DNA from: Aliikangiella sp. G2MR2-5
GTDB lineage: Bacteria > Pseudomonadota > Gammaproteobacteria > Enterobacterales > Kangiellaceae
NCBI RefSeq assembly: GCF_015687155.1
Contig: NZ_JADPQF010000002.1
Coordinates: forward strand, 124,001-188,000
Direction: 5' to 3'
DNA length: 64,000 nt
Part shown: positions 13,467 to 53,861 of the stretch, piece by piece
Numbering within the stretch: position 1 is the first letter of the stretch
Layout of the letters: every line of letters begins with the position of its first letter
Notes under the pieces: model-generated
What the model saw: only the letters and a program-made list of their open reading frames with translations
What the model was told of the DNA's origin: nothing
Database searches by the model: none
Position numbers and translations under genes: made by a program

Positions 13467-15341
13467 ATGTCGCATAGCCAATTTTCTCTACTAAAAGAAA
13501 AGCGCTTTCTGCCCTTTTTTGTTACTCAGGCACTCGGAGCTTTGAATGACAATGTGTTCAAGACAGGGTTAATGATAATGATGTCACACAAACTGGCAGA
13601 AAGCTTGCCATTTGACTCAGACATCGCGGTTAACCTTGCAGCAATACTGTTTATCCTGCCTTTTTTTCTTTTCTCGTCCACAGCAGGACAACTAGCCGAA
13701 AAATACGAGAAATCTCGCTCAATAAGAAGAGTCAAGTTAGCAGAAATATTTATAATGTCGCTTGCTGTTGTGGGGCTCTATTTCAACAACGCAATCTGGT
13801 TACTTGGCGTTCTTTTTCTTATGGGTTTCCAATCAGCGATTTTCGGCCCGTTAAAATATGGTTTACTACCACAACACCTGCATACCGAGGAGCTAGTAGG
13901 AGGAAATGCGCTGGTAGAGTCGAGCACCTTTGTCGCTATTTTGATCGGAAATATTTTTGGAACCTATGTTTTATGGGCTTCAGGTGACTGGAAGATTTTC
14001 CTTTCGATAGCACTCCTATCTTTAGCTATTATTGGCTATATAGCAAGTCGCCAAGTTCCAAACACGCCTGCGGTTGTCCCTGAACTAAAAATCAATTGGA
14101 ATATTTTTACCGAAATTGCCAGAAACTTCAGGTTTATGGCGAAAGACCAAGCAGTTTTCCTTTCGATATTGGGTATTTCCTGGTTCTGGTTTTACGGCGC
14201 TGTATTCCTTACCCAAATCCCCAATTACGCTAAATCCACGCTTGGAGGAGATGAATCAGTCGTCGGCCTATTACTTTCATCACTCACACTTGGAATCGTA
14301 ATTGGCGCAATGCTTTGCGAAAAGCTCTCAGCAGGTCGTGTAGAAGTCGGGTTAGTACCAATCGGCGCATTTGGCTTAAGTTTTTTTGGTTACGATATCT
14401 ATCTTGCCAACCCCAATACCGGACTTGATGTCATCTACAATTTCAAAACCGTATTTGAACAACCAGGAACCATCCGGGTACTGTCTGATGCCATTCTCAT
14501 TGGAATCTTTGGTGGGCTATTTACCGTACCTTTGTACGCATTAATCCAAAAAATTGGCGATCCTAAACATATATCTCGCTTAATCGCGGGCCTCAACATA
14601 ATGAACGCTTTTTTTATGGTACTCTCGGGCATATTTTCGATAGCAGTTTTGAAAAGTGGTTTTTCGATACCACAATTATTCTTAATCACTGCGGGAGTCA
14701 ACTTGCTAATCGCGCTGTACATATTCACCAAAGCCCCTGAATTTATTTTTCGCTTTATCACCTGGCTGCTGATCAATACTATTTACCGAATAAGAAATAC
14801 TAACCTCGATCTCATCCCAAAACACGGAGCAGGCGTTTTAGTGTGCAACCACGTCAGTTTTGTTGACGCATTAATTATCGCCGGATACTGTAAAAGAAAT
14901 GTTCGCTTTGTCATGTACCATAAAATATTTAAAGCTCCAGTTATCGGCTGGTTTTTTAAAATGGCACGCGCCATTCCCATCGCGCCTGCCCACGAAGACA
15001 AAGCTTTGATGGAAACCGCTTTTAATAAAATAGCTGAAGAACTGAAAAGAGGGAAAATGGTTTGTATTTTTCCCGAAGGCAAATTGACTCCTGACGGAGA
15101 AATAGGCGAGTTTAAAAAAGGCATTGAAAAAATCATAGAACGAACGCCAGTTCCCGTATATCCGCTTGCACTAAAAGGGCTCTGGGGCTCCTGGTTCAGT
15201 AGAAAAAATGGAACCGCAATGAAAGGCTGGCCAAGAAAATTCATGGCCAAAATCAAATTGATTGCTGGAGAACCGGTTCCGGCTGAACAGGTGAATGCCG
15301 CTCTGCTCCAGAAGAAAGTTAAATTGTTGTTCGACTCTTAA
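13467..15341 (+). CDS. LplT-like transporter fused to PlsC-type acyltransferase
   Basis: A 624-residue two-domain protein. Residues 1-420 are an MFS transporter with 11-12 membrane helices beginning FLPFFVTQALGALNDNVFK, typical of the lysophospholipid flippase LplT. Residues 440-624 are a glycerolipid acyltransferase with H462-xxxx-D467 (NHVSFVD) and F535-PEG. The pair would import lysophospholipids and reacylate them at the inner membrane. The common larger version also carries a C-terminal acyl-ACP synthetase (Aas); here the protein ends after the acyltransferase, so an acyl donor must come from elsewhere. Confidence 0.88.
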   Translation: MSHSQFSLLKEKRFLPFFVTQALGALNDNVFKTGLMIMMSHKLAESLPFDSDIAVNLAAILFILPFFLFSSTAGQLAEKYEKSRSIRRVKLAEIFIMSLAVVGLYFNNAIWLLGVLFLMGFQSAIFGPLKYGLLPQHLHTEELVGGNALVESSTFVAILIGNIFGTYVLWASGDWKIFLSIALLSLAIIGYIASRQVPNTPAVVPELKINWNIFTEIARNFRFMAKDQAVFLSILGISWFWFYGAVFLTQIPNYAKSTLGGDESVVGLLLSSLTLGIVIGAMLCEKLSAGRVEVGLVPIGAFGLSFFGYDIYLANPNTGLDVIYNFKTVFEQPGTIRVLSDAILIGIFGGLFTVPLYALIQKIGDPKHISRLIAGLNIMNAFFMVLSGIFSIAVLKSGFSIPQLFLITAGVNLLIALYIFTKAPEFIFRFITWLLINTIYRIRNTNLDLIPKHGAGVLVCNHVSFVDALIIAGYCKRNVRFVMYHKIFKAPVIGWFFKMARAIPIAPAHEDKALMETAFNKIAEELKRGKMVCIFPEGKLTPDGEIGEFKKGIEKIIERTPVPVYPLALKGLWGSWFSRKNGTAMKGWPRKFMAKIKLIAGEPVPAEQVNAALLQKKVKLLFDS

Positions 15342-15364: not shown

Positions 15365-18300
15365 CTATGAACTCAGTTTAAATTGTTGTAGCCGAATGAT
15401 CGCTTCGGCAAAATCATTTTCACTACAAGACAATACGAATCGACAATAACCAGGTAACCCCGTCCAGGTCGAGTTATTGATGGCTAGATTCTTCTCATCA
15501 AATAGTTTACTCGCTATTAAATCCGCAGCTTTGACTGGCTCCATACCACTTTCATTGATAAAGGTTAATGGTTTGGCCACCAAGAATAGACCTCCCTCCG
15601 GTTTTATAACATGCCAACCATTTTCATTTAATACATTAGTTAATGTTGTGGCGCGTTCTTTTAATATAAGTCTTTGCTTATTCAAATGCTCGAGCAACAC
15701 CGGATCACTTTTCAGATGAGCTTCAAGAAGCTTTCGCACCGCGTAGCCCAGAGTGAAGTGAGGTTTATGGACTAGAGATATATCAAGCTTGTTTATAGTA
15801 TCCATTGCTGTCGACCAGGCATAACCAAAACGGATCCCACCCGCAGCATATTCTTTGGATACCCCTCCCAAAAGTATTAATCTTGCCTGTTCTGAGATAA
15901 AGGTATTACTAATACTTTCCGCAAAATCCCAAATTAGAGAGTCGTCAAATTCCAAACCAGCAAATATAGTATCCAGGATGACTGTTGCCTGATTCTGACA
16001 GGCAATTTGCAACAGCTCATTCATTTCCTTCGAAGAGTAAATAGCACCGGTTGGATTAACTACCGGACCATTAATGAACAACCAGGCCCCCTGGTTTTCA
16101 CTAAGAATATTTTGCAAATGATTCTTATCGATTTTAAATTGGTTGGAGGATTCTGTTGGCAACTGAATAACATTAACCTGTAGATACTCTGCCGCTGCAA
16201 CAAAATAGCCGTAGCTACCATTAGGAATAATGATACTCTTGCCTTCCTCTGCACATTGCTCAAGAAGAGCCGAAAAAATAGGTGCAACGCCGTTACCTAA
16301 AACGATTTTAGATGTAAAATGTTTCGGTAAATTAAACCGCCTGTGCAATTGTTCAAAAATTGCCGGTTTCGGCTCGCCTTCATCTCCAACACATTTTCTG
16401 ACAAGGTAGCTTTCAAATAGAGACATATCGAAAAAATCAGGAGCAGCCAGCTCATTCTCTCCAAAATCCAGGCGCACAGACGAACAGTTAAAAGAAAGAT
16501 GGTTACCGGTGATAGCAGGATGGGAAAAGGCTCGCTCTGCATCTTTGCATAACTTGACAGGCATTTCCGGGGCAATTTTCTTTGCTTTTTTCTCCATCGC
16601 ACTTGTCGAGCGTGTTCTCTGGAAAAAGAGTAGCTCTTCAAGCAAGTGAGCGTAATAAAGCTGTTTTAATACCGGCGTTCTGCTATAGGTTAGTTCAGCT
16701 GCATTGGTTAAACTTTCAATAACAAATGCGTTGTTGGCAAGTGTAATGTTGAGTGAGTAGTTTTGATAAACATGATTATTCACCAGAGCAGCCATCAAAA
16801 TGAGATTATTAGAAATAGAGTGGGATGACAGGTAGCGGTAGACACCGTGGATTCTCGGTTGACTGCTAAGATCAATGGACTCAGTCAAGTCTAACAACAA
16901 AAGCACATTATTTTTCTCTGCACAGGCAATGAGCTGCTCAACCAACTGGCTCGACTGCGCTTCATTAAAATCAAGTTGAGTGATTACCAGCTCAGGCTTT
17001 AACTTTTCAATAAGTGCAGTAAGAAATTCAACTTGCTCCGGCGCTTCAATGATTTCCGACTGTGAACGACTTTCCTTCGATACTAGATACCCGAGTGATT
17101 TACAGACCAGCGACTTTGGAGGTCTAAAGTTAGAAAACAGACTAGAAACAAGCTCTCGCCTTCCGGGAGTGATAAACACCTGCTCCTCTCCAACATCAAC
17201 TCTAAGATAGTATCTAAAAAATTCGGCCAATTGCTGGCGAAAATATTTAAGGCCTTCAGTGTCACCATAAGGGTAGTTTGTCACTCTTTCCAGTTGCCCT
17301 GCAAGAAAAGATAAAAAGGAATACCGCTCTTCTGCGTCGGAATAATTGTCATAAGTCAGGTCGATGGCGCTACTGACAGATTTGTCATTGAGAGAGGCGA
17401 GCGCTTTGAAAATATTTTTCACCTTGTTTGGAAAAACCAGTTTTGCTTCATAAACATCAACCGAATGATATATTTTTCCGCCAGCCTTTGCATAAGCTGC
17501 AGCGGTAGTCGCATCAATAGAAACATCCGAGTTATCTGACATGTAAAATTCAAACCGGTGGCCAACCGATTTTTCAATATCGACCAAAGCATCGATTTCA
17601 GTATCCGCAGCCTGCTCAACCTGGGTTTGCCATACTCGCCTGACTTCGAATCCCCGTCGACGCATTAACCTTTCCAGTACAGCTCGCCCGGGTCGACCAC
17701 CTAAGTTGAGAATCAACTTGCCATCTGGTTTTAGCAAAGGAATAGACTGTTCAACCGCACTGGCAATTAATCCCAGTCCAAACTGGTCTTCAACGAATCC
17801 CTGCTTAGCGAAATAGTTACTTAAAGAATACAGGTATTCATCACTGGCGGATTCTTCTACAAGCTTTTCCATTGCTTCAGGCTCAGGGTTGAGCACTTGA
17901 GGAATACAACCAACAATCTTATCGAATTCAACCGTCTTTTCTTTAAAAAAACCGAATAAGTTTGACTCATGGAATTCAATATTATTGACAATGGTTTGAC
18001 CTCGACCAAAATCCCGTGCACTAGCATCTGCATTATATGCATTGAGATAAAAGTTGAGGCGAGCACAAACAATTGCTTTCGGATTGATATCGACCCCGTA
18101 TATTTTTTCAGGTCCATAGCGAAGAGCCAAAGCAAGAGTAATCCAGCCAATACCACATCCTAATTCAACGACCTTCTTAGTACGATATTCATCTGCAGGA
18201 TAACGAATCAAACCTTCGTAGAAAGTGAATGACCAGGCTTCTGGCAAAAACGTACTGGGAAACTGAAAAAGATCGAGTTGAACCCTTTGTTCACCGGCAG

Positions 18301-18517
18301 ACAGAACAGACTGCTGGATCATTCTGAAATGCGTCGAATCCGCGCTTATTTCATCGGGGTTAGCAAAGCTATAACTTCTTAGCTGATGTAAAAATTTTAT
18401 CGCTTCGGTTCGTTGCTCCCTGGAATCAAGAGCTTCAAGTAGCAGTTTGAAAACCTCGTAAGCTTGTGCGCTCGAACCTTTGCAACTTTCAATAAAGTTA
18501 TCAATCTGCCAGTTCAT
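15365..18517 (-). CDS. Plant-type methionine S-methyltransferase with intact aminotransferase domain
   Basis: A 1050-residue protein with the whole architecture of plant methionine S-methyltransferase (MMT), which makes S-methylmethionine from methionine and AdoMet. N-terminal methyltransferase: FTFYEGL (98-103), motif I ELGCGIGW (118-125), GVDINPKAI (141-149), IPQVLNPEPEAM (205-216), then EDQFGLGLI and GGRPGR. The C-terminal part (about 690-1050) is a fold-type I aminotransferase with N821 (NPTG), D849 (LDTIF), S887-K888 (SKEYAAGGIRFG) and R1026 (GYCRF), so PLP chemistry looks possible. It is convergent with the LplT-PlsC gene and apparently monocistronic. Identification rests on remembered plant sequences. 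Confidence 0.88.
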   Translation of the reverse strand: MNWQIDNFIESCKGSSAQAYEVFKLLLEALDSREQRTEAIKFLHQLRSYSFANPDEISADSTHFRMIQQSVLSAGEQRVQLDLFQFPSTFLPEAWSFTFYEGLIRYPADEYRTKKVVELGCGIGWITLALALRYGPEKIYGVDINPKAIVCARLNFYLNAYNADASARDFGRGQTIVNNIEFHESNLFGFFKEKTVEFDKIVGCIPQVLNPEPEAMEKLVEESASDEYLYSLSNYFAKQGFVEDQFGLGLIASAVEQSIPLLKPDGKLILNLGGRPGRAVLERLMRRRGFEVRRVWQTQVEQAADTEIDALVDIEKSVGHRFEFYMSDNSDVSIDATTAAAYAKAGGKIYHSVDVYEAKLVFPNKVKNIFKALASLNDKSVSSAIDLTYDNYSDAEERYSFLSFLAGQLERVTNYPYGDTEGLKYFRQQLAEFFRYYLRVDVGEEQVFITPGRRELVSSLFSNFRPPKSLVCKSLGYLVSKESRSQSEIIEAPEQVEFLTALIEKLKPELVITQLDFNEAQSSQLVEQLIACAEKNNVLLLLDLTESIDLSSQPRIHGVYRYLSSHSISNNLILMAALVNNHVYQNYSLNITLANNAFVIESLTNAAELTYSRTPVLKQLYYAHLLEELLFFQRTRSTSAMEKKAKKIAPEMPVKLCKDAERAFSHPAITGNHLSFNCSSVRLDFGENELAAPDFFDMSLFESYLVRKCVGDEGEPKPAIFEQLHRRFNLPKHFTSKIVLGNGVAPIFSALLEQCAEEGKSIIIPNGSYGYFVAAAEYLQVNVIQLPTESSNQFKIDKNHLQNILSENQGAWLFINGPVVNPTGAIYSSKEMNELLQIACQNQATVILDTIFAGLEFDDSLIWDFAESISNTFISEQARLILLGGVSKEYAAGGIRFGYAWSTAMDTINKLDISLVHKPHFTLGYAVRKLLEAHLKSDPVLLEHLNKQRLILKERATTLTNVLNENGWHVIKPEGGLFLVAKPLTFINESGMEPVKAADLIASKLFDEKNLAINNSTWTGLPGYCRFVLSCSENDFAEAIIRLQQFKLSS

Positions 18518-53607: not shown

Positions 53608-53703
53608 TCAGTTTAAACTGATAAATTCAGGTTCAATAAACTGGCATAGCGAGGCGATATGAAGACGAGTTAGAAGTAGAAAAAATTGGAAACTCGAATT
53701 GTC

Positions 53704-53848
53704 GCTCATCCCTACGCCGATACTAATCGGATCAGGTTCTACGGGTTTAGGCAGCGATAACGCAACGGTTTAATTGATAATCCGTTTTAAATCATCGTCT
53801 TAGCCAGTCTCAGCACGATAAGCTTAATCGCTTGGGCACCCCGAGAGC
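53704..53848 (-). promoter_or_regulatory. TPP riboswitch
   Basis: Conserved THI-element segments in order on the minus strand: CTCGGGGTGCC, GCTGAGA, ACCCGTAGAACCTGATC, then GGCGTAGGGATGAG. The P3 arm between GCTGAGA and the second part is long, with an AT-rich insertion. Thiamine pyrophosphate binding would shut off thiC and the operon. Confidence 0.95.
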
Positions 53849-53861
53849 TTGTTAAGGCGGG

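Follow-up and report, generated by a model that had tools for sequence, protein, structure and literature searches.

In a 64,000-nucleotide stretch of the genome of Aliikangiella sp. G2MR2-5 (positions 124,001 to 188,000 of contig NZ_JADPQF010000002.1; this whole stretch is hereafter the window) we find a gene whose 1050-residue product, as judged from sequence and predicted structure, combines a methyltransferase domain of the MmtN/methionine S-methyltransferase (MMT) type with a complete class-I aminotransferase fold bearing the canonical residues of a pyridoxal 5'-phosphate (PLP) site. We propose, as a reading for which the balance is about even, that this protein is a bifunctional single-chain enzyme, in which a synthase of S-methylmethionine (SMM) is fused to a PLP enzyme that would most likely use SMM. 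In a more specific form of the proposal, which we hold somewhat less firmly, the one polypeptide would make SMM and then consume it at a PLP site to which a dead and a live aminotransferase copy of the same chain each contribute. In such a mechanism the N-terminal domain would make SMM from methionine and S-adenosylmethionine (AdoMet), the middle and C-terminal parts would face each other inside one chain as two subunits do in an aminotransferase dimer, and the PLP site would act on an alpha-amino acid, most likely the SMM made by the same chain. A first-pass annotation of this DNA had described a plant-type, two-domain MMT with an apparently live PLP domain; the degenerate aminotransferase copy in the middle and the proposed sharing of one site between two domains go beyond it.

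Domain architecture and the PLP residues

The gene is a single open reading frame (ORF) filling its interval, with an ATG start and 1050 codons, on the minus strand (which the first-pass annotation leaves unstated) of a genome of 5.0 Mb; 20 relatives align to its product at 37-68% identity. General methyltransferase models of Pfam match near residues 112-170, and alignment with the bacterial MmtN, a comparison that the first-pass annotation had put forward, bore out a homologous methyltransferase domain: the Roseovarius indicus protein (PDB: 7vvv) matches residues 93-357 with an e-value of 4.1e-7. By hand count in the printed 7vvv alignment, D69 and C121 of MmtN, given as AdoMet-binding residues in the passages available to us of the MmtN study (PMC9135737), correspond to D143 and C204; at the MmtN methionine-binding residues E127, R132 and E250 the same alignment is gapped or shifted. 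On this homology we assign the N-terminal domain to the MmtN/MMT-type methyltransferases and consider it very likely that the protein is an SMM synthase.

Plant-like dual-domain MMTs, termed Group III, are known in some Deltaproteobacteria and Oligoflexia according to passages of the same paper (PMC9135737). Two sequence features of that group are present here, namely an MmtN-homologous domain at the N-terminus and, in the same polypeptide, an aminotransferase domain at the C-terminus. A plant-type MMT in a bacterium, as the gene was designated earlier, is thus not new, since a bacterial two-part Group III MMT has been published.

The Aminotran_1_2 model of Pfam matches residues 735-1041 with an e-value of 3.1e-38, well beyond chance. 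In alignments to solved aminotransferases N821, D849, K888 and R896 fall respectively on the NPTG asparagine, the pyridine-nitrogen aspartate, the PLP lysine and the phosphate arginine, and R1026 falls on an arginine near the C-terminus of 6f77; the roles of these residues in the PLP sites of aminotransferases are well established. None of the five varies among the 21 aligned members, which come from several phyla, and all are among the 36 of 375 columns of the C-terminal part that are invariant in this alignment. An enlarged alignment has 27 rows, some of them partial, and the C-terminal domain is covered by 25: K888, D849, R896, R1026 and W1018 are each found in all 25, F852 in 24 of them, and N821 in 23 of the 24 rows readable there (one row has aspartate and one is masked). 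A contact of W1018 with the sulfonium is speculative. The motifs and residues that had been singled out earlier, namely ELGCGIGW, the IPQVLNPEP segment (read as CIPQVLNPEP within residues 204-213), N821, D849, K888 (in SKEYAAGG) and R1026, are all present as described, R896 being found besides; K888 does match the PLP lysine, and positions 821, 849, 888 and 1026 are canonical family-wide, save for N821D in the one extra divergent member. Plant MMT may, as the first-pass annotation supposed, have lost the PLP lysine and the NPTG asparagine; the passages of the literature consulted gave no statement of the PLP residues of MMTs, which does not imply that there is none. We read the C-terminal part, from its alignment and predicted model, as a class-I aminotransferase fold that is complete and retains the canonical PLP residues, and regard its PLP site as likely to be live.

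A profile search of the PDB with the C-terminal domain was led by ordinary aminotransferases (4my5, 5.5e-27), followed by ACC (1-aminocyclopropane-1-carboxylate) synthases (best 3.8e-19), with the methionine aminotransferase YbdL (1u08, 5.9e-13) and GntC (8e-13) also among the matches. GntC (NF041364; arginine-derivative cyclase) is likewise the best NCBIfam model by e-value, with 103.4 bits for the whole protein and 96.3 bits for the C-terminal part; identity with GntC was rejected, the score lying far under the curated cut-off of 415. The structure-alignment rows for the whole predicted model cover mainly residues 652-1050, and the absence of other families from them is uninformative.

The middle domain and a probable composite PLP site

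Fold searches of the predicted model revealed that residues ~396-630 resemble the large domain of aminotransferases, the Foldseek superposition having a high rmsd (11.7 for 1o4s). An hhalign comparison of the middle with the C-terminal domain aligned 22 columns (522-543 on 828-849; P = 7.8e-4, probability 25%), a match that is suggestive, so that the reading of the middle domain as an aminotransferase copy rests on the fold searches. Of the two-domain architecture described previously, the presence of methyltransferase and aminotransferase on one chain stands; the domain count does not, since this region reads as a separate, degenerate aminotransferase large domain. Elsewhere in the class the middle domain is matched in 2 of 321 genomes, once by the window gene itself and once by a short stretch of a 411-residue frame.

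A profile of the middle domain recovered one PDB match at E <= 0.01, the transaminase 2zc0 (E = 0.0025), in which 'pYekteGlsefR' is aligned to 'MYTPANGIPELR', setting Y417 on the partner tyrosine. In class-I aminotransferases each subunit contributes a tyrosine to the PLP site of its partner, as with Tyr70 of aspartate aminotransferase. Similarly, Tyr85 of ACC synthase interacts with Lys273 of the adjacent subunit, as stated in the part of the source available to us (PMC1282579). All 25 rows that can be read at 417 have the tyrosine, among them the divergent member L034, and position 581, the proposed place of the lost lysine, is asparagine in 23 and aspartate in one of the 24 readable rows (register by eye). 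The C-terminal stretch 700-722, counterpart of the Y417 region, is without a conserved tyrosine. The losses thus look complementary: the middle copy appears to keep the trans tyrosine and the C-terminal copy the lysine, and neither conserves the residue of the other. Such a pattern is what one composite PLP site per chain predicts, and we consider an arrangement of this kind probable; K888, N821, D849, R896 and R1026 would come from the C-terminal domain, and Y417 would be lent by the middle domain.

Possible fates of S-methylmethionine and possible chemistry of the PLP site

The plant SMM cycle requires homocysteine methyltransferase, as set out in the portions consulted of PMC9135737. Of the 21 MMT genomes 20 contain matches to PF02574, as do 9 of 14 controls; most of these unannotated frames look, from their length and the contig edges, like MetH or cut MetH, and five MMT genomes add a frame of the size of HMT-MTHFR (638-675 residues). 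Stand-alone homocysteine methyltransferase candidates, judged by size (~300 residues, away from a contig edge), were seen in 2 of the 21 MMT genomes, the window's own (G000) and G651; that of the own genome, 314 residues long, reaches 60.9 of the 215 bits required by PRK09485 and 63.4 of the 453 required by PRK08645, far short of both. Because candidates occur in just these two, the plant cycle would seem not to explain most carriers, in which SMM would be without a plant-type sink, with the caveat that completeness is known for one of the 21 genomes. Were this so, the fused PLP enzyme would be the obvious candidate sink.

Both R1026 and the type of fold suggest that the PLP site takes an alpha-amino acid as substrate; that this substrate is SMM we hold to be about as likely as not. 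Since the PDB profile search is led by aminotransferases and then ACC synthases, and GntC leads the NCBIfam models under its cut-off, transamination, gamma-chemistry and decarboxylation are all viable. Our first guess, itself a tentative one, is that the site transaminates SMM to 4-dimethylsulfonio-2-oxobutyrate; decarboxylation or loss of dimethyl sulfide may be the chemistry instead. As SMM and AdoMet are known to have the same gamma-sulfonium, the site could be an SMM lyase that, like ACC synthase on AdoMet, expels dimethyl sulfide and yields ACC or 2-oxobutyrate; ACC synthases are indeed found among both fold and profile matches, with GntC the best NCBIfam model by e-value. However, ordinary aminotransferases outrank both in the PDB profile search, the GntC score of 103 bits is far from the 415 demanded by that model, and we deem such a lyase improbable. 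Slightly less improbable, in our estimate, is a PLP site acting upstream, converting 4-methylthio-2-oxobutyrate to methionine (or the reverse) and feeding the methyltransferase of the same chain. This would suit a C-terminal domain that is nearest to ordinary amino acid aminotransferases and has the methionine aminotransferase YbdL among its profile matches, but YbdL lies far behind the best of these, and SMM would be left with no fate in genomes lacking a stand-alone homocysteine methyltransferase.

The earlier suggestion that a single chain both methylates methionine and acts on the product, possibly as an entry to dimethylsulfoniopropionate (DMSP), fits, in its first part, the domains and the conserved PLP residues; the DMSP route is weakened. 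One of four Group III strains tested makes DMSP, and bacterial Group III MMT genes are unlinked to DMSP, nonribosomal peptide synthetase or methionine-cycling genes, according to passages of PMC9135737. PF04115, the family of the DsyD decarboxylase, was not found in the own genome and is present in 3 of the 21 MMT genomes; for the DMSP lyase family PF16867 the own genome gave one partial match under the cut-off (21.8 against 27 bits). A search for DMSP aldehyde dehydrogenase genes, also suggested earlier, did find PF00171 in the own genome (12 matched stretches), but such enzymes are too general to be informative on DMSP, as they occur in 14 of 14 control genomes. DMSP as the end product is possible but unsupported.

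Several observations weigh against a bifunctional enzyme with a composite site, the single DMSP maker among the Group III strains being one of them. F852 stands where ordinary aminotransferases have tyrosine. The divergent L034 (genome G778) reads DSTG for NPTG (N821D, P822S) and has F852L, with K888 and the methyltransferase motifs kept; the PLP site may be dispensable in this member, which is possibly a natural case of PLP-site decay. A tyrosine lies somewhere in 700-722 in 12 of 25 rows, spread over several columns, and in L007, L019, L021 and L026 it has a 'DY.P' setting and may be a relic of the old partner tyrosine. Column 580 (asparagine in the window protein) is lysine in 11 of 24 readable rows; should the register be shifted by a single position, roughly half of the copies would have a middle-domain lysine, though an unconserved one. 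The alignment to 2zc0 is a weak one. Pairwise identities among 23 rows average 0.566 in the methyltransferase part (residues 60-358), 0.376 in the middle (365-640) and 0.386 in the C-terminal part (676-1046), making the aminotransferase parts, by this measure, less conserved than the methyltransferase part. Finally, comparison of the loci at the threshold used gave no substrate-naming neighbor common to distant clades.

The altered NPTG motif beside an intact methyltransferase part in L034, the faster divergence of the aminotransferase parts and the unusual F852 would fit an SMM synthase carrying non-catalytic aminotransferase remnants, kept for stability, oligomer assembly or the sensing of PLP or an amino acid. 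A loss of the PLP residues in plant MMT, if real, would point the same way. Yet the invariance of N821, D849, K888, R896 and R1026 in 21 of 21 members from several phyla is more than a scaffold needs. A sensor binding PLP or an external aldimine is still compatible with it, and we judge the remnant explanation as a whole unlikely, though less so than the upstream and lyase alternatives.

Distribution, gene neighborhoods and comparison with known systems

The family is rare and patchy. Searches recovered it in 4 of 295 genomes at the level of the order (E <= 1e-40, own genome included), in 1 of 398 of the own phylum (E <= 1e-60, the own genome), in 6 of 290 Bdellovibrionota (label from the tree; G655, G656 and G650 were previously in the set, and G853 was read in two frames) and in 1 of 244 Cyanobacteriota (G646, the search center itself). 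The two frames of G853 (L035 and L036) are one split MMT copy meeting near unread bases, likely an assembly flaw. Another genome of the window's genus encodes a protein identical to that of Aliikangiella coralliicola M105, which places the host in or near Aliikangiella. A pattern scan of genome contigs confirmed 22 loci among 61 pattern stretches, with hosts in the Gammaproteobacteria (Aliikangiella, Pleionea, Kangiellaceae and other gammaproteobacterial metagenome-assembled genomes, MAGs) and elsewhere (three Xenococcaceae, Silvanigrellales and relatives, Bacteriovoracaceae/Halobacteriovoraceae, Bdellovibrio relatives, one Myxococcales MAG and one Proteobacteria MAG). No copies were found in viral contigs, nor in plasmids at E 1e-30, phage records being unsearched and near relatives of the window genome possibly left out. 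A tree of the 23 bacterial rows unites nine gammaproteobacterial copies (100/100) and joins them to the three Xenococcaceae (100/98); this tree covers bacterial rows only, its deeper forks are weaker and three of its rows are long.

In the window the gene is flanked by one divergent and one convergent gene. A gene block is common to the window, L006 (A. marina), L027 (A. coralliicola) and L009 (a Kangiellaceae MAG), and the MMT gene therefore looks vertically kept in Aliikangiella/Kangiellaceae. Across distant clades, at the threshold used, only response-regulator-like ORFs (5 loci) recur besides MMT, and an argument for function from operons or neighbors was set aside on this account. The neighbor at 13467-15341 (+), a 624-residue ORF that by eye is a membrane transporter fused to an acyltransferase, lies tail to tail with the MMT gene and is also present in L006, L009 and L027. 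Downstream ORFs were judged by eye in Silvanigrellales, Bacteriovoracaceae and Xenococcus. Downstream of the gene, L018 and L023 have a same-strand ORF of ~640-660 residues that by eye is acyl-CoA synthetase-like, L019 and L021 an ORF of 1236-1259 residues with a 4-base overlap with MMT, and the Xenococcus loci L015 and L017 a nearby related ORF beginning 'LALWAVPRSVSTAF', by eye sulfotransferase-like. The sole Rfam match in the window at the gathering threshold is a thiamine pyrophosphate riboswitch at 53692-53853 (-), with 61.3 bits.

Table 1. Coordinates in the window of the MMT gene, its parts and its key residues
Feature	Position	Strand	Basis
Whole gene, 1050 residues plus stop	15365..18517	-	ORF list, translation
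N-terminal methyltransferase part, residues 1-358	17444..18517	-	7vvv MmtN match at 93-357
AdoMet-binding motif ELGCGIGW, residues 118-125	18143..18166	-	Translation, family alignment
Middle domain, residues 360-650 (396-630 match aminotransferase large domain; no conserved PLP lysine)	16568..17440	-	
Y417, proposed trans tyrosine of composite PLP site	17267..17269	-	2zc0 alignment; 25/25 readable rows
N581, proposed place of lost PLP lysine of middle domain	16775..16777	-	Alignment, register by eye
Class-I aminotransferase fold, predicted complete, residues 652-1050	15368..16564	-	Fold and profile searches
N821, NPTG asparagine	16055..16057	-	Alignment to solved aminotransferases
D849, pyridine-nitrogen aspartate	15971..15973	-	Alignment to solved aminotransferases
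F852, tyrosine in ordinary aminotransferases	15962..15964	-	Alignment
K888, PLP lysine position	15854..15856	-	Alignment to solved aminotransferases
R896, phosphate arginine position	15830..15832	-	Alignment to solved aminotransferases
W1018, invariant	15464..15466	-	Family alignment
R1026, carboxylate arginine position	15440..15442	-	Alignment

The role of SMM in bacteria with Group III MMT has been called difficult to predict in a passage of PMC9135737; it becomes directly testable here, because a conserved and apparently live PLP site lies on the same chain and stand-alone homocysteine methyltransferase is rare. In the parts of the literature examined we found no account of the degenerate middle domain, of the near-invariant PLP residues across phyla, of the complementary tyrosine/lysine pattern, of the rarity of stand-alone homocysteine methyltransferase in carriers, or of an occurrence in Aliikangiella/Kangiellaceae and Xenococcaceae. 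If our proposal is true, the protein would by itself open a path either to a sulfonium metabolite, namely 4-dimethylsulfonio-2-oxobutyrate, from which DMSP might be made, or to the release of dimethyl sulfide; the carriers are Aliikangiella/Kangiellaceae, Bdellovibrionota, Xenococcaceae and a Myxococcales MAG. It would explain the purpose of SMM in Group III bacteria, extend the list of potential producers of sulfonium compounds by Aliikangiella, Xenococcaceae and Bdellovibrionota, and provide a case of a PLP site split between dead and live copies fused in one chain.

With class-I (fold type I) aminotransferases such as 6f77 and 1gd9 the protein has in common the complete fold with its lysine, asparagine, aspartate and two arginines, whereas the partner tyrosine is here apparently supplied by a degenerate copy fused to the chain and not by an identical subunit, and phenylalanine replaces tyrosine at 852. 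An active site common to a dead and a live PLP-fold partner is known from serine palmitoyltransferase (LCB1/LCB2) and the glycine decarboxylase P-protein, which belong to other families with other chemistry. The Group III MMTs of plants and some Deltaproteobacteria/Oligoflexia share the order of the parts, an MmtN-like methyltransferase first and an aminotransferase region at the C-terminal end, in a chain of ~115 kDa (PMC9135737); in contrast to their description in the passages available, we find three parts, with a degenerate middle domain and a full set of PLP residues, and hosts in Aliikangiella/Kangiellaceae and Xenococcaceae, groups that those passages do not name. The MmtN proteins of Groups I and II, represented by the R. 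indicus 7vvv, have the homologous methyltransferase domain as a single domain with no PLP part in a chain of 305 residues, and the 1050-residue length and aminotransferase parts of the window protein rule out identity with them. Finally, DsyGD (PMC11306096), as far as described in the part consulted, is likewise a single chain joining an S-methyltransferase to the enzyme of the next step in sulfonium metabolism, but it does so with other methyltransferase and decarboxylase families and in another pathway.
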